From Kalmusia sp. IMI 367209 (Eukaryota > Ascomycota > Dothideomycetes > Pleosporales > Didymosphaeriaceae), in the NCBI GenBank assembly GCA_027946365.1, contig JAPEUQ010000001.1, positions 186,001 through 250,000 of the forward strand: DNA of 64,000 nt, in the 5' to 3' direction. The notes under the pieces are model-generated. The model saw only the letters and a list, made by a program, of their open reading frames with translations. It made no database searches and was not told where the DNA came from. Numbering within the stretch: the first letter of the stretch is position 1; each line of letters opens with the position of its first letter. Made by a program: the position numbers and the translations under genes. Shown here in pieces: positions 52,697-63,976 of the stretch.

Positions 52697-54396
52697 TCAC
52701 CTACGCTGCTTATTGACGTTTAGTTCATCCATGCCAAACTTCCAGACTTTCCACGCATCAAATCCACCAGAGTTTTGTACGATTCCCATCAAATGCCGAA
52801 GCTGCTCGACGTCTTTCATGTCGACCTCTGGGTAGTAGGAGTGATGAGTAGATAGCATACGAACCAAGCATGTGCCGGCGTGGGATATGCTCAAAGTCGT
52901 GGACAGTCCGAGATGAGGTTTTAGGAAGAATTTCGCACTGATGGCAATACATATGCAGTATTTGAGAATACTAGCACTGGACGTGGGGAGCGTGTCGCTC
53001 TCGGCGTTCATTACTGCGGGGAATTCGCAGTACATCAAGTCCATCGTTGCATGCAGAATAGTGCAGGCTGTCCAGTATATCGTCATGGCATATAGATAAT
53101 GGAGTCCAGTTCGTTCTAGCACTTCCGGTATGTAGACTTGCTTTGACAGATCGTCCATCCCATTGACGAGAGCCTCTGCAGCCTGAGGATGAGCGTGCTC
53201 GAAATGCGAGATGAGATTGCGATACCATGTTTGTAGTTCATTTTCGATACCTTCACACCGCTGTTTAAAACATTGCGCTCTTTTGAGCGTTTCAAGGGTC
53301 TGCGGCTGAGTGCTGATCAAGTCCCACTCCTCGAATATTCCCGGTATCTTCACCATGATATCCATGGAAGTGTCAATGACGTCTTTAGTCCTGTTATTCC
53401 AGGGTCCGGTAGTCCAATCCGGGAAGGAGAGAAAGCTTGCTTTGCGATTCGAAAGCCCAGATATCACACCGTTATAGCGAGCTTCGAGGAAGAGCTCGTG
53501 TGTTCCTGGGTGTGAGAAAGCCTCAGGGGGATGAAGGCGAACGAGATTAAGTAAGCCATGTATATGACCTTTCCAGTTCTGCGCTGAGGCCCCCACATCA
53601 TTGAGTTGCTGGGATGGGTTAGATCTGCTCTGATCGTAGGAAGAATGAATAATGTACCTCGTAGAGTGCTAAGAGGCGGCAGCTGTTCAATACCCCGAAC
53701 GGCTTTACATTGCCCGGAGTTTTCAATTCTTTCGCAAGTAACGATAGCGCTTTGCCGTATAGTTCGATGCCTCGCCGCAGAAGGTATTTATCCTGCCGAT
53801 CTCTTCCGACTTTAGAGGTGCTCAATGCAAGCAAGGCGCATCTCAAAACTTCGCTCTGGGGCACCGTGTATGATGTGTATTCCGCCCATTTAGCCTCGCG
53901 GCGTACTGGGGTTACCCTATCAGAAGTGACTGTGACCGATTTGGGCAAGTAGAGGCTCCAGAAGATGTCAAAATACTGAAGCTCCAGCGAAGTACGAATC
54001 AAATCATTGGATAGCGTAGCAGTAGAAGACACTTCATGTCGCGGGGACGATTTTTGCGGTATGGGAGGCGACCGTTCCGTCGCCGGTCTATAGGTGCCTT
54101 TTCCCGCGTCGTCGACTTGGACTACAATCATACTACGCTCGTATCCGCCGCACACGTACCGCCCTCGAGTGCAGTTCCCGCATACCGGTTGCAGCAAGTC
54201 GCACTACAGGGGTCCTCGTTAGCTGAGTGATCGTCTCATGAGGCAAGGGATTGAAACATACTTTCTTCTTTCTTTTCCGGCAAGTCGAGCACCCTTTTTG
54301 GTAACAACATCAGCGCCACTTATTCAAAAAAGACTGGGCATGCCGGGGAGGGAAAATGGGGCAATCACCTTTCGATCGGCCGGGAACGCCCACCAT
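52697..54396 (-). CDS. Zn(II)2Cys6 transcription factor, four exons
   Basis: The model is complement(52697..53608, 53658..54203, 54262..54293, 54369..54396), 505 aa, with all phases consistent. Two tiny exons of 28 and 32 nt encode MVGVPGRSK and the first half of the zinc cluster, GCSTCRKRKKK. Exon 3 supplies CDLLQPVCGNCTRGRYVC. Cysteines at 11, 14, 21, 28, 31 and 38 give a perfect CX2CX6CX6CX2CX6C. The remainder is a fungal-specific regulatory region (SLELQYFDIFWSLYLPKS, SEVLRCALLALSTSKVGR, HIHGLLNLVRLHPPEAF) as in the Zn2Cys6 regulators with a Fungal_trans_2 domain. The acceptor of intron 1 (AAAAAG) is unusual but is the only one that yields both an ATG and the complete zinc cluster. It lies about 4 kb from a UstYa/RiPP-precursor pair and could regulate it; that is inference. 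Confidence 0.87.
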
Positions 54397-55366: not shown

Positions 55367-56866
55367 ATGGAGCTGCTGGACCTGCCTCCCGAGATCTTCC
55401 AGCGCATCATACAGAAACATGTGGGCAGAGTTGGACTTTGCAAGGCGTGGAAGCAGCGAGAAGTCTGCAGTAAGTGCCAAAATCCCGACTCGCAGATCCG
55501 TACACGCATTGTCGGCCAAGCGATACGCAAATCTATCACACGCACGATGACCGTTCCCTGGCTTCTATCCTGCAGCCATATAGGTAGGATTTTTACTAAT
55601 GGTAGCACCTCAGAAACATTCAACACCTTCATCACCGAAGAGGTCTTCGGGCGCCAGCCGATGAAGGTCTACTCTCGCGCCTCGAGCAAGCAGTTGTTTC
55701 GCAACGGCTTGGATATCTTCTTTGAGTATCGTGTTGCTGCCCCATATGACGCGCACGATTTTATGCTCTCAGTAGTTCGCAAGGCTGTTAACGGGATCAT
55801 GAATATCACCCAAGAGGATTCCAACGATATACGAGCAAATTACATCAAGGAAATCGCTATTGCCATCAAGGAATATTGCAGGGACATAAAAGGCTTGATC
55901 ATGGATCAGGGAAAACGAGCTACACGTTTGTCAGCAAAAGACTCGGATGACGCACTCTTGCTTTGCCTAGTGGCCGGTATGGGCAATGCGAAACTGGCTC
56001 ATAAAGTCCTCAAACACTGCCCCGCTCTATGGAAGTCAACATACTGTTTTGGCCTGCCCATCGAAGTGGCTGTTCGCGCCAAAGATCTAGATATGGTGAA
56101 GCTGTTTCTCCAGGACCCCCAATCGTCGGACAAGAGCAAGACATCGTCGCTCTTCACGCCAGTCGTAAGTCAGCAAATGAAGAGTTACTACCAGGACATA
56201 CCGCAAGATTTCTTGAAAGAACTCCTTTCCTTGTATGTTGCCATCCTTGGCCGACCTCCTGGCGTGTATTGTGGTCTATGGTTCGCCGATGCTGTGATTT
56301 CACAGAAGATTGTTCTTGTTGAAGAGATTTTGGATATGGGCTTCACCCCGGCTCTTGCTAAAACCTACCGTACAAAGTGTATGGTATCATCTGCCGGCCT
56401 CAGATTCCGCAACGATCTTATGAAACTTCTACTGGAGAGAAAGATTTTCAGCACCAGGAAGTCATATACAATTCTGTTCGATCGATCGATTAGCACAAAG
56501 GAAGATATGCTAGAAGAGTCTATACTAAATTACGCTGTCCGCAACAGGGACCAAGGTCTAGCTACAGTCGCTCTGGAAGCTGGTGCGGAGCCTGACGGTA
56601 TATTCACCTCCCGAGCACTCGATCGCGAGTATCCCATTCGCACTGCGGTCGTGAATGATGTGTTTGATGATCCCATGATGGTGGAGCTTCTTCTTGAATA
56701 TGGAGCAGATCCTGAAGGTGGCGATGATTTCTACAATGAGCGTATTATAGACAGCATTCCAAGGCGCTCCTTAATGCACAGGGTGATCAAGAAGGCCATC
56801 AAAACCAAGCACGCGACCAAGAAAGCCAACAAGAAGGGCAATAAGACCACTCGCTCTATCAAATGA
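55367..56866 (+). CDS. F-box-like / ankyrin-repeat protein, 499 aa
   Basis: A single exon starts at ATG 55367 (MELLDLPPEIFQRIIQKHVG), which begins an F-box-like helix pair. The frame extends upstream without an ATG, so 55367 is the natural start. Ankyrin-type helices recur along the chain: DSDDALLLCLVAGMGNAKLA, GLPIEVAVRAKDLDMVKLFL, ESILNYAVRNRDQGLATVAL and DPMMVELLLEYGADPEGGDD. The C-terminus is very Lys-rich (KKAIKTKHATKKANKKGNKT). Many dothideomycete genomes carry families of such proteins, presumably substrate adaptors for ubiquitin ligases or of unknown role. It sits directly next to the RiPP-type pair; membership in that cluster is possible but not supported by any motif. Confidence 0.75.
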   Translation: MELLDLPPEIFQRIIQKHVGRVGLCKAWKQREVCSKCQNPDSQIRTRIVGQAIRKSITRTMTVPWLLSCSHIGRIFTNGSTSETFNTFITEEVFGRQPMKVYSRASSKQLFRNGLDIFFEYRVAAPYDAHDFMLSVVRKAVNGIMNITQEDSNDIRANYIKEIAIAIKEYCRDIKGLIMDQGKRATRLSAKDSDDALLLCLVAGMGNAKLAHKVLKHCPALWKSTYCFGLPIEVAVRAKDLDMVKLFLQDPQSSDKSKTSSLFTPVVSQQMKSYYQDIPQDFLKELLSLYVAILGRPPGVYCGLWFADAVISQKIVLVEEILDMGFTPALAKTYRTKCMVSSAGLRFRNDLMKLLLERKIFSTRKSYTILFDRSISTKEDMLEESILNYAVRNRDQGLATVALEAGAEPDGIFTSRALDREYPIRTAVVNDVFDDPMMVELLLEYGADPEGGDDFYNERIIDSIPRRSLMHRVIKKAIKTKHATKKANKKGNKTTRSIK

Positions 56867-57369: not shown

Positions 57370-58423
57370 TTATAATCCCATCCCTCCACCCGCCCCATAT
57401 CCGCCGCCCTCCTCCGCCCACCCAAGTAGCCCCTCATAATTACTACACATATGCCCCGTATGGAAATTCGGATACGGAGTACTCAGCCCCTTCACCCACC
57501 TGAACGTCACTATACTAGCGTCCGCGGTGCACATCAGCCTCTGTCTGATGACATCGACACAGTGTTCTAGATGCGCCTCCTCGATGTCAGGCAGGTCGGC
57601 GATTTTGCCAGCGAGATGCGAGAAGAGGGGATTGCTGGGGTCTTTGTCGTAGTGGTGGCGCGCCCAGATTGCTTCGAGACAGTGTAGTTGGTGCGCGGAT
57701 TCGAGGTAGCCGATATAGCCCTAGGAGAAATTAATGCTGGGGAAAGGGGAGAGTGAGGGGGGACGCACGCCGCCAGCGCTCTTGGGCCATTGGACGGAGT
57801 CGGTCGAGAGGCCGAGTTGGGAGATTTCATTAGCGGTCAGATTGAGTGCTGGAGTGACGGTGAGATGATCCCACGCTGCCATTGTGTCCTTTGTGGGGCC
57901 CTTGGGGTATGCTGTCAGTCTGTCAGTAGGTTTGAAACACGTGCGACTGAAGCGTGGCAACAAAGCACCAGTTCTCGGTGCTGGTTGTCCACTCACCTTT
58001 GTATGGTGTCTTCTCCCAGAAGGCCGTTTTGAAGATTCTGGTTAACGTGAGTTTCGAACGTAGATACTTGGTTGGAAATTGCTCACTCGTAATGAAGTGG
58101 TCGCTTGGAATTCACATATGCAGGTGCTACCGCATTTGTCAGCCCCAGTCAAGGAAACACGAGCAAGCGCTCTTACAATAAAGATCCTTTGAATGCTCAG
58201 ATTGAGGTGCGGTGTTCCTTTGCCCAGCGAGTATGATTAAGAGCAACATGATTGTAATACCATGAGCAAGCCAGTGCAAGGACGACGAAAATCGAGATAC
58301 TTTTGCCATCACGGACGATGGTCGTGATCGGTGCAAATCTAATGAACCTCCATCATCTGAAGATTCGTTGCCTCGTAGTAGCTTTTCTTCATCTTGTGAT
58401 AGTTTAACGTATGAAGGAGGCAT
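57370..58423 (-). CDS. UstYa-family (DUF3328) RiPP-modifying oxidase
   Basis: The model is complement(57370..57720, 57769..57911, 57997..58037, 58087..58126, 58177..58423), 273 aa, with four introns of 48-85 nt and consistent phases. The start is ATG 58423 (MPPSYVKLSQDEEKLL). One transmembrane helix is seen at about residues 50-70 (HWLAHGITIMLLLIILAGQ). After it come SPAYVNSKRPLHYE and DTMAAWDHL, the usual UstYa blocks. The two signature motifs are present: HQLHC at 167-171 and HLEHC at 207-211 (HxxHC...HxxHC), the latter in EEAHLEHCVDVIRQRLMC. Known family role: oxidases in ustiloxin, phomopsin and asperipin pathways that crosslink side chains of a ribosomal core peptide, anchored in the secretory pathway. 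It is transcribed away from a repeat precursor 767 bases to the right, which fits that role. Two small exons (40 and 41 nt) explain why no continuous frame shows the protein. Confidence 0.9.
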
Positions 58424-59190
58424 GACATTAGAGAAAGCGACAGCAGAATGAGAGAGACGCAAAATATGAGGCGTGTGAAGGCAACCCTATGCCTTTGTTT
58501 CGAGTGGTAAGCTCAATCAATGTTCGGATGGTTCTTCACTACTTGCCCCTCGAATTGCATCATCATGGATTACAATCTTATCAGCATCTGATCGCTGTAA
58601 TATTCAACCCCGCTTTCATACTACGAACGGAAGGAGGGCAGATACCACGGTTGTGAGTACGGGAACTGCGTAGAGGGATCAGCCAATCAAAGTGACGATG
58701 AAATGTATGGCAAAGCTTATTGATCATAAGCACTGTCAGATATGCTTCTTTGCTGATTGCGCAGGAACGCTATGGTGCAATTGCCTTACCAGGAGGGGTA
58801 GGTGTTAAATCGGCAGATAACGTGCGACTGGAGCTAAATCGACGTTGACGGTCGCAAGATGGTAGTTATCCGGTGGGGGCTGTGAATCCTTCTTTGTATA
58901 ACCATATTCGGAAGGTTCGGATTTGGCTAACGCGAAGATAGTCATCGCTTATGCAGGATAATCCTCGCAGTATTGCTGCTTTTAGCAAGCATGTATACCA
59001 CCAGGGTTACACGCTGTGAGGGGATATTGGCTGATGCTTCGAGTGTCGTCAATAGCAGTGATAGTCACGACGGTGAGATCCACAAATCCAGATCCAAAAG
59101 TAATGGATATAAATTTCGGCGCGGTGCATGGATCGATCTTACCAGTGCTTCTTCGTGTACACGCCAGTCTGTCTAGCTAGAATCTATAAC
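58424..59190. promoter_or_regulatory. Shared bidirectional promoter, UstYa and precursor
   Basis: This 767-base region separates the start codons of two divergently transcribed genes, the usual layout for co-regulated pathway genes. A TATAAAT string lies 77 bases before the precursor ATG. No open frame of note is present. Binding sites for a regulator could not be assigned with confidence. Confidence 0.6.
59108..59114 (+). promoter_or_regulatory. TATA box of the precursor gene
   Basis: TATAAAT lies 77 bases upstream of the chosen ATG (59191), a normal distance for a fungal TATA element given a short leader. It also argues for starting at 59191 rather than the upstream in-frame ATG at 59128, which would leave only about 14 bases of leader. 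Confidence 0.55.
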
Positions 59191-59760
59191 ATGCATTCAA
59201 AGTTCATCATCGCTGTGGCTGCGGCCCTCAATAGCGCCGTCCTTGCTGCACCGGTTTCTGCACGTAGGTTTGCCTTCTGTGAGAATATTTGGTATTATCG
59301 CTTACTAAACAATTCAGCTGCGGCCCCTATCGAATTTGGAGCAGCGGCGTATCGACCTCTGTATAAGGAGGCAGAGGATGCTGGGCTTGTCCCCGGGAAA
59401 GCAAAGCGTGCGGCCCCTATTGAATTTGGAGCTGCGGCGTATCGACCTCTGTATAAGGAAGCAGAAAATGCTGGACTTGTCCCCGAAAAGCGGGCTGCCC
59501 CCGTCGAATTTGCTGGAATCTCGTACTCGCGCTTGTATAAAGAAGCGGAGGAGGCTGGTTTGGCGGCGGACAAGGCGAAACGTGCCGCCCCCGTTGAATT
59601 TGCTGGAATTTCGTACTCGCGCTTGTACAAAGAAGCGGAGGAGGCTGGTTTGGCGGCGGACAAGGCGAAGCGTGCAGCTCCCGTGGAGTTTGCCGGAATT
59701 TCGTACTCGCGCTTGTATAAAGACGCGGAGAAGGCTGGACTCGTCAAGGATGAAGAGTAG
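59191..59760 (+). CDS. Secreted RiPP precursor with five Kex2-bounded repeats
   Basis: The model is join(59191..59263, 59318..59760), 171 aa. Exon 1 encodes a signal peptide (MHSKFIIAVAAALNSAVLA) and ends inside a Pro codon. A 54-nt intron follows with a GTAGGT donor, TTACTAAAC branch and TTCAG acceptor. Exon 2 is almost entirely five tandem units of 28-30 residues. Each unit starts AAP[IV]EF, contains a Y-x-x-L-Y-K core (AAYRPLYKEAE in units 1-2, ISYSRLYK[ED]AE in units 3-5) and an A-G-L tail. Units 1-4 end in Lys-Arg, the Kex2 site; unit 5 ends at the stop. This is the architecture of dikaritin precursors and of other Kex2-processed repeat proteins. The neighbouring UstYa-family oxidase supports a modified cyclic peptide. 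The mature product, its crosslink and its activity are unknown. The in-frame ATG at 59128 would bury the signal peptide and is rejected. Confidence 0.9.
   Translation: MHSKFIIAVAAALNSAVLAAPVSARRFAFCENIWYYRLLNNSAAAPIEFGAAAYRPLYKEAEDAGLVPGKAKRAAPIEFGAAAYRPLYKEAENAGLVPEKRAAPVEFAGISYSRLYKEAEEAGLAADKAKRAAPVEFAGISYSRLYKEAEEAGLAADKAKRAAPVEFAGISYSRLYKDAEKAGLVKDEE
59320..59757 (+). repeat. Five in-frame peptide-coding tandem units
   Basis: Units lie at 59320-59409, 59410-59493, 59494-59583, 59584-59673 and 59674-59757. Lengths are 30, 28, 30, 30 and 28 codons. Units 1-2 form one sequence class and units 3-5 another. Units 3 and 4 encode identical peptides and differ by five bases, all synonymous. Lys-Arg codons close units 1-4 at 59404-59409, 59488-59493, 59578-59583 and 59668-59673. 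Confidence 0.95.
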
Positions 59761-60198: not shown

Positions 60199-63036
60199 AT
60201 GGCTGAGCTGCAGAAGCTTGAGAAGCTTTCAGCGTCGCACTGCGTCCTCCTCGCCGTTCATTACGCCAACGAATCCAACATCATTGCCCTGCGCGCATTG
60301 ACAGCCCTCCGCGACACCGATCTCGATGTCGAGCTCGTTCTGCAGATTTTATTGACATACCTTCCTGAAGGTCTCGATCCATCCGTGTACCTCGAGTACC
60401 TCGACGAGCTCGCAAGCAATAACCGTACACCTGGCGACGACCCCGCCGCCGCACTCGACGTTTCTCCAGTAGAGGAGTTGTCAAACTCACAAGCACGGAA
60501 GAAGCGGCGGAAACTGGGGCTTCTGCCCATCGTACACCCTCTATACAAGGCTGAGACGGAGCTCGACTTCTTCACACACTTCCTTATCCACCGCGCACAC
60601 CGCGTCGATGCTGAAACTGGGCTGCTCAACACAATCCCCCAACTGATTGTTCCTTTCCTGGGCTATTCTGAATATATACGGATATGGCTTATATCTACTG
60701 CACTGCCGCTCCTCCGATTGACATACGAATACTACCCTCAGAGCCCCGCTCTTTCGCTCGACGAGTTCGCTCGGTTGAAGGGTAGGCGGGCTGTTGACCT
60801 ACAGCTTTCGAACTTGCGTCGGTCGCATCAAAGTATTAAAGAAGAGGGGGATGCGGCACGAGACATCAGAGGCGTGATTGGTCCTTGGATATGCGGAGCG
60901 AATGAGCGCAAGAGGCGGAAACTTTCGCCGGATGACAGAAGAGCATCCGTAGCTGAAGCGCCTCCCCAAGAGCCCGAGGACTGGGAATGTTTGTTTGAGT
61001 GGCTGGTGCATACATCGAAAGAAGATTTTTCCCTGGTGTCATCCGCTATTATAGAGTGGGACGGCCCTGTTGACCTGGACCTGGGTGGTTTTGAGGAGGG
61101 ACGCGACTATGTCGATGACGAAACTCAACGCCGGCTAGAGCGTCGGTATGCACAAACAGCCTTGGCATGTTTATACCTCGTTGAGAATAGTCATGCGGAA
61201 ACCTTGCAGACAGCACATACTCTGCTTTCTCGAATATCTGATCTGTTGGGCCTGGAATCGCCGCCAGGGCTGAACGTAGCCGTCGACGCATTGCCGACCT
61301 GCGACCCGAACATGCCCATATTCCAGGAAGCAAAGGCTTCTACTCTCCAAGAAGAATCTATCACACGGCCCGATAACCCTCTCACACAACCAAATCAGGA
61401 TGCGGTACATCTTCTCGAACTGTTCCTCTTCTCCGCTTGCGTTCTGTCCAGCCTACAGCATTCTACATCTACTAGAGAGGCTGCACGGATGTTTCTCCGT
61501 AATGACTCTTCTGAGCAGCTTCTGCTTCTTCAGAAGATTGTCCACGCTCTTAGCACTAGGGGCAAACTCGACGGTGAACAATGGCGGGCGACTCGAGCTA
61601 AGCTCCTCTGGCTGTGGAACTGGGGTGCTGGCCCCCATGCGCAAGGAATATTCGGTCTTATTGACGGCAAGACGGTCGAGACAGAAATACTTAAGGGTCT
61701 TTTGGAGAGCAGCCAATATCCGTTGGCTATCCAATTATACGTTCGGCCAACTTCGGATCGTCCCTTGGCTCTTGTTGATGTTGAGAAAGTCATAGTAACG
61801 GCTGCAATGCATCACTACGACAACGCAAGTAACGGCAACCGGACGAGGGGTGGCATGAAGCGGGCGTCAGATATCGTAACGGCTTTCAAACCACACTTTG
61901 CCAAATCAGATCGCTTCCAAAGAATACAGGCCCTCCTTGCCGCAACACACGCTATGTCATTTTACTCGCTCATACTACAGCATGGTGTTCCATTCCAGCC
62001 AGTTAACATTAGAGTGAGTGCGGATCCACTGTCGCTGATCAAGAAACTGCTGGAGCAAAATCTGCGGAGCTACACACATCTCGACGACCTTATCTCTATT
62101 GGTCAAAACCTCGTTGTCGCTATGCCGTCAACCCTCATGGACGACGATTCAACTCACAATAACTTGAACGCGGTTGCCGTTGAGAAAAAGAAGGCAGCGG
62201 CGGAGCGCCGGGTGATAGGCATGACGGTGGAAGCAGCACTCGCAGAAGATGATTTTGAGACTGCCTACTCGTACGTGGTCAATAGACTTACACCGCACCA
62301 ACCAGACCCAGCGGAGTCTCCCTCTGTATCGACGTCATCTCAGCGCTTCTCTTTCGGTTCCTACGATTCAGTTACTCAGGAGGATGAGGGCGAGGATGTG
62401 GCATGGCGCGCCGCGCTCCAAGCTGGGCGTCACCGCTCGTCACCGTCGTCCTCGCTGAGCTGGTCGCAAACAAACACAGCTGCTCTCACAGCTGCCCGAC
62501 CCAACCTGCGAAGATTAGAGCAACGGATGGAGCTTCTCTCACAAGCCTTACTGCTTACGCCGGGTCGCCATTTAGAAGAGGTGTTGGCTGTGTGGAAAGA
62601 GTGTGAGACCGAAATGATGAACCTCTTGGCCGAAGAGACTGAAGCAGAAGAGCGACACAACGATGCTGCCGACCGCAGGCTTCCGGGAACTTTCGCCGAA
62701 GCAATCATAGTCCAGCCACGGCGCGAAGTCGGCAGAGGTGCAGTTGAAGAAGCGCCAATGGGTCTCTTCGACGTCGCTAGGGGCGCCGCAGCAGCCTTCT
62801 CGAAGAGTGCATTCCCTCTACGTGGAAATAATCGAACAGCATCAGGAGCCGAGAGCCGTGATCCGAACTATGATAGCGGACGTGTCTCCATGGACCTCAG
62901 CGACTCGGGCAGCATAAATAGCGCTGGCGACGAGCGGGTTAGGAAGAGAGATCAATTAGCTAATGCCGTGACTGGCGGATTGGCCAGTGGTCTGGGTTGG
63001 GTGCTCGGGGCCACGCCTGTGAATGAGCGACAGTAG
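60199..63036 (+). CDS. Sec39-domain protein (NRZ/Dsl1 tethering complex)
   Basis: A single exon of 945 aa starts at ATG 60199 (MAELQKLEKLSASHCVLLAV). The N-terminal Sec39 domain is recognised by YANESNIIALRALTALRD and DLDVELVLQILLTYLPEGL, followed by a long alpha-solenoid with no membrane segment (FEWLVHTSKEDFSLVSSAII, LLWLWNWGAGPHAQGIFGLI). The C-terminal 200 residues are partly disordered and end in a Gly/Ala-rich helix (GGLASGLGWVLGA). Yeast Sec39, with Dsl1 and Tip20, tethers Golgi-derived COPI vesicles at the ER; the animal counterpart is NBAS. The presence of this conserved gene marks the right boundary of the RiPP-type locus. Confidence 0.88.
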   Translation: MAELQKLEKLSASHCVLLAVHYANESNIIALRALTALRDTDLDVELVLQILLTYLPEGLDPSVYLEYLDELASNNRTPGDDPAAALDVSPVEELSNSQARKKRRKLGLLPIVHPLYKAETELDFFTHFLIHRAHRVDAETGLLNTIPQLIVPFLGYSEYIRIWLISTALPLLRLTYEYYPQSPALSLDEFARLKGRRAVDLQLSNLRRSHQSIKEEGDAARDIRGVIGPWICGANERKRRKLSPDDRRASVAEAPPQEPEDWECLFEWLVHTSKEDFSLVSSAIIEWDGPVDLDLGGFEEGRDYVDDETQRRLERRYAQTALACLYLVENSHAETLQTAHTLLSRISDLLGLESPPGLNVAVDALPTCDPNMPIFQEAKASTLQEESITRPDNPLTQPNQDAVHLLELFLFSACVLSSLQHSTSTREAARMFLRNDSSEQLLLLQKIVHALSTRGKLDGEQWRATRAKLLWLWNWGAGPHAQGIFGLIDGKTVETEILKGLLESSQYPLAIQLYVRPTSDRPLALVDVEKVIVTAAMHHYDNASNGNRTRGGMKRASDIVTAFKPHFAKSDRFQRIQALLAATHAMSFYSLILQHGVPFQPVNIRVSADPLSLIKKLLEQNLRSYTHLDDLISIGQNLVVAMPSTLMDDDSTHNNLNAVAVEKKKAAAERRVIGMTVEAALAEDDFETAYSYVVNRLTPHQPDPAESPSVSTSSQRFSFGSYDSVTQEDEGEDVAWRAALQAGRHRSSPSSSLSWSQTNTAALTAARPNLRRLEQRMELLSQALLLTPGRHLEEVLAVWKECETEMMNLLAEETEAEERHNDAADRRLPGTFAEAIIVQPRREVGRGAVEEAPMGLFDVARGAAAAFSKSAFPLRGNNRTASGAESRDPNYDSGRVSMDLSDSGSINSAGDERVRKRDQLANAVTGGLASGLGWVLGATPVNERQ

Positions 63037-63555
63037 CTTCCTTCACGCGTTAACGTAGTAAATGATTGTTACGTTCCAATTTGGCAGCCGTGCTTGACGT
63101 TTGGTGCGTACGCTCTATATCATAAGTGTCTCACCACGACACACCTCCCGATTGCCCATTGACCTCGAGAAACGTTGTGCTTGGTGGCAAAAACATCATA
63201 CTTGCACTGCAGCATTCCTTCATGTCTCAAATCCCTTCTTCATCGGTTCTCCTCGGCCCCGTTCTCGTGCTGCTTTCGCAAGTCGCTCCTTCCTCAACAA
63301 CATCGCACCACCCTACCCACCTGCAAAGCCCAGCCAGCCAGCCAGCCAACCAGCCAACCGAGTCTATCCGTCCCTCACACCCTCACTTGAGCATCACCAA
63401 CCTACCATCCTACCCAACCTGACCCGACAACAAACGCCCTACACCGAGTCCGTTGTATGAAGATCTCCTCCTCTCCCATCACTCTCCAACACACCTTCCG
63501 CTCGATCTGTCTTGCCTCCAACAAAAATTCTCGCAGCAAAACACCATCAATCAAC
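63037..63555. other. Intergenic promoter region, pyrimidine-rich
   Basis: Contains the 3' side of Sec39 and the promoter/leader of the secreted small protein. A CAGCCAGCCAGCCAACCAGC array (imperfect CAGC/CAAC tandem repeat) lies near 63330-63360. Confidence 0.55.
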
Positions 63556-63976
63556 ATGCACGCTCTCGCCCTCCTCGCCCTCCTCATCACCCTCGCCCTC
63601 GGCGCACCCACCACGTCCTCGCCCCGCATCTACCTCGCCACGTCCCCCCAAGCCGGCTGCGCCTCCCAGCGCGATCCACCAATCTACCTCTCGCCAGCCG
63701 ACGGATGCTACGCCTTCGCGCCGGGCACGCACAGCCTGCGCGTCGTGGGCGTCGGCTTCCCGGAGATCCTGAAGTACAACAGCCGTAAGTTTTCTTTTAC
63801 ACTTTGACGAAGGGGGAGGGCGGTAGATTTGTTAACGGAGGGACGTAGTGCGCGTGTATCCTGGTGTTGACTGCACGGGGGGCTGGAGCCTTGAGCCGGC
63901 GACTACGTGTTTTCGGGAGGGATGTGCATGTAGCGATGTTAGTGCGTACAGGAGCATTCAGGTTGTTCAGGAGTAG
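63556..63976 (+). CDS. Small secreted cysteine-rich protein, 118 aa
   Basis: The model is join(63556..63784, 63849..63976). The start is the ATG at 63556 because it opens directly with a signal peptide (MHALALLALLITLALGAPTT); an in-frame ATG at 63457 would place 33 extra residues before it. The 64-nt intron has a GTAAGT donor and a GTAG acceptor and is phase 1. The mature part contains six cysteines, at 35, 51, 85, 97, 102 and 104, including a CFREGCAC cluster, enough for three disulfides. Length, secretion signal and cysteine content fit the loose class of effector-like small secreted proteins of plant-associated fungi. I recognise no family, and function is unknown. It is not obviously part of the neighbouring RiPP locus. 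Confidence 0.78.

Follow-up and report, generated by a model that had tools for sequence, protein, structure and literature searches.

The 64,000-nucleotide stretch of DNA analysed here (the window) carries a real two-gene UstYa RiPP locus, in which the gene for a Kex2-processed repeat precursor (KEP) and the gene for a UstYa/DUF3328 oxidase point away from each other, and the precursor family is apparently undescribed. By analogy with characterised fungal pathways the pair would make a cyclic peptide, as the first-pass annotation had proposed. Our reading, which we regard as probable, is of a minimal RiPP locus of the UstYa type with, most likely, a Tyr-cross-linked secreted peptide as its product.

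The divergent gene pair and its neighbours

The two genes and their parts are as follows:

57370..58423, minus strand: UstYa/DUF3328 oxidase gene (predicted gene model, PF11807 match and relatives)
58423-58177, 58126-58087, 58037-57997, 57911-57769 and 57720-57370, minus strand: predicted exons of the oxidase gene
58223..58273, minus strand: likely transmembrane segment, residues 51-67 (from sequence; a hydrophobic stretch aligned in the relatives)
57679..57693, minus strand: first HxxHC motif, HQLHC, residues 167-171 (its H, H and C are shared by all 9 sequences of the alignment)
57559..57573, minus strand: second HxxHC motif, HLEHC, residues 207-211 (H, H and C likewise invariant in 9 of 9)
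57370..57417, minus strand: C-terminal tail of the oxidase, out of frame relative to the Bimuria protein P0006 (three-frame translation and alignment)
58424..59190, no strand: divergent intergenic region of 767 bp between the start codons, candidate shared promoter
59191..59760, plus strand: KEP precursor gene, 171 amino acids, exons 59191-59263 and 59318-59760 (predicted gene model)
59191..59262, plus strand: predicted signal peptide, 24 residues (hydropathy)
59264..59317, plus strand: predicted intron, 54 nt, GTAGGT..CAG, at the boundary of signal peptide and repeats (gene model)
59320..59409, plus strand: unit 1, 30 residues, KR end (sequence)
59410..59493, plus strand: unit 2, 28 residues, KR end (sequence)
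59494..59583, plus strand: unit 3, 30 residues, KR end (sequence)
59584..59673, plus strand: unit 4, 30 residues, KR end (sequence)
59674..59757, plus strand: unit 5, 28 residues, DEE end without KR, closing the protein (sequence)

The first-pass annotation had described a signal-peptide protein of five 28-30-residue units, the first four followed by Lys-Arg, and, 767 bases away in the opposite direction, a membrane-anchored protein with two HxxHC motifs; the gene models bear this description out.

The oxidase model joins five exons, at predicted splice sites, into a protein of 273 amino acids, with its start at 58423 and its stop at 57372-57370. In the Pfam scan this protein matches PF11807 from position 7 to position 219 of the 220-position profile (E 4e-41), scoring 141.7 bits against a curated cut-off of 25. 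Judged from the hydrophobicity of the sequence alone, it has a single membrane helix, at residues 51-67. Eight relatives were found, three of which carry names (Mytilinidion, Lepidopterella and Bimuria); these names suggest that the DNA comes from a dothideomycete, probably a member of the Pleosporales. A PDB sequence search with the protein gave no match at E 0.1 or better. The AlphaFold model of one relative, P0004 (aligned with the seven others), was dropped before any fold search; its mean pLDDT of 50 is poor, so it supports nothing by itself.

Past YEGLLGW (about residue 258) the frame of the oxidase departs from the tail of P0006, the Bimuria protein and the closest named relative, and a P0006-like tail is recognisable in a different frame of the window. 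The shift may have arisen naturally, or it may reflect a wrongly modelled end or a fault in the assembly. It would fit a decaying locus, in which the precursor would have been kept and the oxidase would be non-functional through its altered C-terminal end. We hold this to be highly improbable, since the change falls beyond the two HxxHC motifs, beyond the final cysteine common to P0004-P0006 and P0008 (the remaining four relatives end before this position in the alignment) and near residue 261, where the Pfam match ends, and since the relatives differ in their tails too and the assembly may be at fault.

The precursor model runs from an ATG at 59191 to a stop ending at 59760, with predicted splice sites. 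KEPs have been defined by a signal peptide and by three or more repeats, each 8 to 100 residues long, between dibasic sites (PMC7329392). The window precursor has a hydrophobic 24-residue first exon, with a best 12-residue mean hydropathy of 2.16, and five units, four of them closed by KR. Alternative 5′ models include an unspliced frame and an upstream-ATG model (hydropathy 2.44 vs. 2.16), and every alternative start or splice model retains the repeats. The repeat detector found nothing when run on one two-base-block shuffle of each scanned sequence (273,978 bases in total).

Comparison of the units with one another suggests that the encoded peptide matters. Between units 3 and 4 there are 5 silent base changes and 0 replacements (P 0.0009), between units 1 and 2 there are 6 and 3 (P 0.009), and between units 4 and 5, over 26 codons, 10 and 6 (P 0.0015); in the absence of selection, replacements would be expected to make up some 75% of the changes. 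The three comparisons are not independent because they have units and history in common. The differences are mostly silent and all lean in one direction, and thus point to purifying selection.

The surroundings of the pair are:

60199-63036: Sec39 gene, right neighbour (Pfam scan)
55367-56866: gene whose ankyrin match is weak and under the cut-off, left side (Pfam scan)
Left side: Ulp1-type protease gene (Pfam scan)
52697-54294: split Zn2Cys6-like regulator gene, left side, about 3 kb from the pair

The cysteine halves of the split gene (near 52.7-54.3 kb), at 54294-54256 and 54203-54141, do not share a frame, as if an intron separated them, and form a motif that we take to be Zn2Cys6-like; Pfam gave no match on two later pieces of the gene. 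It is a possible pathway regulator and a PhomR-like candidate. Downstream of Sec39, positions 63391-63804 encode a small predicted secreted protein without a Pfam match. A Pfam scan of 18 frames and models from the window, a set that leaves some short exons outside, found no P450, methyltransferase, reductase or transporter.

The repeat unit and its proposed product

A protein search with the whole precursor found no relative at E 0.001 or better among 687 candidates. A profile of three-unit rows gave exactly one match at E 10 or better among 154 candidates: P0009 (E 5e-17), a JGI-sourced protein of 107 amino acids with three units and 52% identity to the window precursor. Its length is within the limits of the whole-precursor search, so length is not why that search missed it, and the lack of relatives there meant little. 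Searched against the genome, P0009 matches the window gene alone, so the precursor family looks single-copy here. A second own-genome match to the precursor (L010, E 0.72) was judged to be due to chance, the 9.9-kb stretch around it (L032) being without a KEP.

The window precursor and P0009 have the unit pattern EF....Y..LYK.A..AG in common. E5, F6, Y11, L14, Y15, K16, A18, A21 and G22 are invariant over the seven distinct aligned units, among which positions 7-10, 12-13 and some of the back part vary; Tyr11 and Tyr15, four residues apart, sit in the variable stretch, with the front conserved and the back largely so. Read from sequence, the pattern would fit a core with recognition flanks, but also a peptide helix of which one face is held constant. 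The eight-residue cores first put forward, AAYRPLYK and ISYSRLYK, are plausible, but the conserved stretch is longer than either and runs from EF to AG.

In the reading that we prefer, the predicted signal peptide would take the precursor into the secretory pathway, Kex2 would cleave after each Lys-Arg and a carboxypeptidase would trim the basic tail, so that five peptides of two sequence types would be released. The oxidase from the divergent gene, membrane-anchored and presumably lumen-facing and copper-dependent, would then oxidise these peptides; for CctR, another member of the DUF3328 family, copper dependence is ascribed to HxxHC...HxxHC (PMC12435403). Most likely this oxidation would close one side-chain ring, or two, with the participation of Tyr11 and Tyr15, both invariant across the units. 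The conserved residues on either side (EF before and K-x-A-x-x-A-G after) may be a recognition sequence or may be retained in the product. Once secreted, the peptide would probably serve as a signal or be directed at other organisms. The calculated monoisotopic masses of the linear units without Lys-Arg are 2874.4915 (unit 1), 2746.3965 (unit 2), 2926.4712 (units 3 and 4) and 3055.5502 (unit 5, which has no Lys-Arg to lose); one ring would lower them by 2.0157 and two rings by 4.0313.

The main rival is that the UstYa protein acts on the peptides without ring closure, and hydroxylates, halogenates or desaturates a residue. DUF3328 members have indeed been implicated in hydroxylation, halogenation and isomerisation as well as macrocyclisation (PMC12435403). 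We nevertheless judge this rival unlikely, because both tyrosines are invariant in the window units and Tyr ether bonds close the rings of the ustiloxins, asperipin-2a and phomopsins, all of which arise from KEPs with the help of DUF3328 proteins (PMC7329392). The same survey also speaks for our preferred reading: DUF3328 genes are most numerous at the position adjoining KEP genes, and Tyr occurs in 65.6% of the repeats of KEPs accompanied by DUF3328, vs. 38.2% without it (PMC7329392).

A further reading, which we find distinctly doubtful, follows from the length of the conserved block: the mature product would be the whole 26-28-residue unit, a secreted helix with a UstYa-made Tyr-Tyr staple. 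If true, this would be a ribosomal Tyr-Tyr staple between residues four apart on one helix face, in contrast to the short rings known from described members, and the genome's numerous divergent UstYa-KEP pairs would between them yield a combinatorial set of oxidised peptides, a different one from every pair.

UstYa loci and repeat precursors across the genome

We scanned the whole genome, 42.8 Mb in 30 contigs. PF11807 has 102 matching stretches, of which 100 score above the curated cut-off; by distance the stretches group into 73 gene-like sets and 55 loci, and one of these loci rests on a below-cut-off match. In the Umemura survey 1461 strains had 9399 DUF3328 proteins between them (PMC7329392), or about 6.4 per strain by our division, a figure obtained by different methods from ours. 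P_proprotein has one match in the genome, as expected for a Kex2 protease.

Nineteen of the 55 loci were read with wide flanks (200,077 bases), and seven of these have KEP arrays (L012, L021, L023, L026, L028, L030 and L031). The detector requires at least three repeats within one open frame, and its nine ORF hits became seven arrays once each array was counted a single time, without the hits in its other frames or on its opposite strand. By eye the units of the seven arrays are mutually unrelated (DSDDIWLW, AVAVGPIIEEAGEGYES and ATYAPLVYTGGL types, for example). A signal-peptide start could be modelled for five of them, none being convincing for L026 and L031. The distance between a repeat frame and its nearest UstYa stretch ranges from 776 to 1334 bases; six of the pairs are divergent and one convergent (P 0.0013 if orientation were random). 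The genome thus has at least six further UstYa-KEP pairs besides the window pair, which, with the Pfam match and the precursor features given above, upholds the initial reading of the locus as a UstYa gene beside a Kex2 precursor.

Control DNA from the same genome (93,901 bases, a small sample made up of the window minus a 10-kb stretch around the locus, plus four other stretches) has no KEP array. At the survey mean of 5.25 KEPs per ascomycete strain (PMC7329392), the chance expectation is 0.025 KEPs in 200 kb, with the reservation that detection methods differ.

These counts bear on the idea that the precursor yields unmodified linear secreted peptides, signal- or pheromone-like, and that its UstYa neighbour is coincidental. 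Arrays at seven of 19 loci, set against none in the control, make this very unlikely, as does the survey's statement that mating-factor and pheromone KEPs are without DUF3328 neighbours apart from three exceptions (PMC7329392). The idea draws on the 6120 of 7878 KEPs that have no DUF3328 neighbour (PMC7329392), on the helical look of the unit and on the abundance of UstYa stretches and loci here, which raises the odds of chance neighbours. It also draws on the 12 wide-flank loci at which no KEP was detected and on six loci with 1.5-kb flanks (L001-L006, 21,588 bases), none with a KEP; the latter are counted separately because their flanks are short, and they count against a general UstYa-KEP rule.

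Some other loci deserve mention in their own right. At G000:C4:1094122-1105196 (L025-L027) a precursor whose units contain ARTPIGQFISIWYGEDGDD has UstYa stretches on either side, and the four gene-like sets in about 11 kb make this a candidate multi-oxidase RiPP cluster. Tyrosinase stretches lie within about 2 kb of UstYa stretches at G000:C7:87660-90016 and G000:C28:1915195-1917997, as in ustiloxin/phomopsin-like clusters.

Taken singly, the window locus is a modest surprise. What it contributes is a family of precursors whose conserved pattern is clear and for which there is one candidate oxidase, and it offers a simple two-gene system for asking which residues UstYa enzymes pick for cross-linking. 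The wider result is the genome itself, with its 55 UstYa loci, its precursors beside seven of the 19 read widely and the divergent orientation of six; such genomes look rich in fungal ribosomal peptides that are still unread.

Comparison with known systems

A KEP gene next to a UstYa/DUF3328 gene is a common fungal arrangement that has already been surveyed (Umemura 2020; PMC7329392), and on divergent KEP/DUF3328 pairs this survey alone was on the subject among the literature matches listed. The novelty was thus rated too highly at first. The six unit strings are absent from searchable PMC text (5.39 million papers, supplementary tables not covered); the supplementary KEP tables of the Umemura survey lie outside that text, so the precursor family may already appear there. 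The window pair answers to the survey's KEP definition and has the adjacent DUF3328 gene, and its unit family was matched to no published KEP type, the same tables again lying outside the comparison. The long, helix-like conserved block of the window unit differs from the short cores of described members, and this weighs against our main reading.

In the broad sense, of which DUF3328 is the defining feature according to work cited in a passage of PMC12048977, the original label of a dikaritin-type locus stands, there being a DUF3328 gene beside a precursor. In the narrow sense it does not. Ustiloxin and phomopsin clusters resemble the window locus in their signal peptide, Kex2-cut repeats and UstYa-family protein, and a candidate zinc-finger regulator gene lies nearby here, but they have two or five UstYa genes (PMC7329392), where one is seen at the window locus, and typically a tyrosinase and an S41 peptidase. 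Our six-frame, exon-by-exon search listed 37 tyrosinase stretches genome-wide and none on the window's contig (C1), and 8 S41 stretches genome-wide (best E 3e-7), again none on that contig; all the S41 matches are weak, so a diverged S41 peptidase could go undetected.

The epichloecyclins (GigA) are alike by description, with a signal sequence, repeats at KR sites and a Tyr-based ring, and in the portion of PMC6514808 that treats them lysine methylations are a GigA feature. Another close parallel is the asperipin-2a locus of Aspergillus flavus. Its cluster, as outlined in excerpts of PMC6514808, has four genes that include a reductase and a transporter, neither of which is among the Pfam-scanned window frames, and the window units differ from its units in sequence and length. 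According to the same excerpts, it has a precursor (AprA) with a Tyr-bearing core and no tyrosinase; AprY is its single DUF3328 protein and is essential for asperipin-2a, the rings of which are ethers of Tyr side chains (PMC6514808). With no tyrosinase or S41 match listed on its contig, the window locus resembles this one-oxidase asperipin plan rather than that of ustiloxin and phomopsin.
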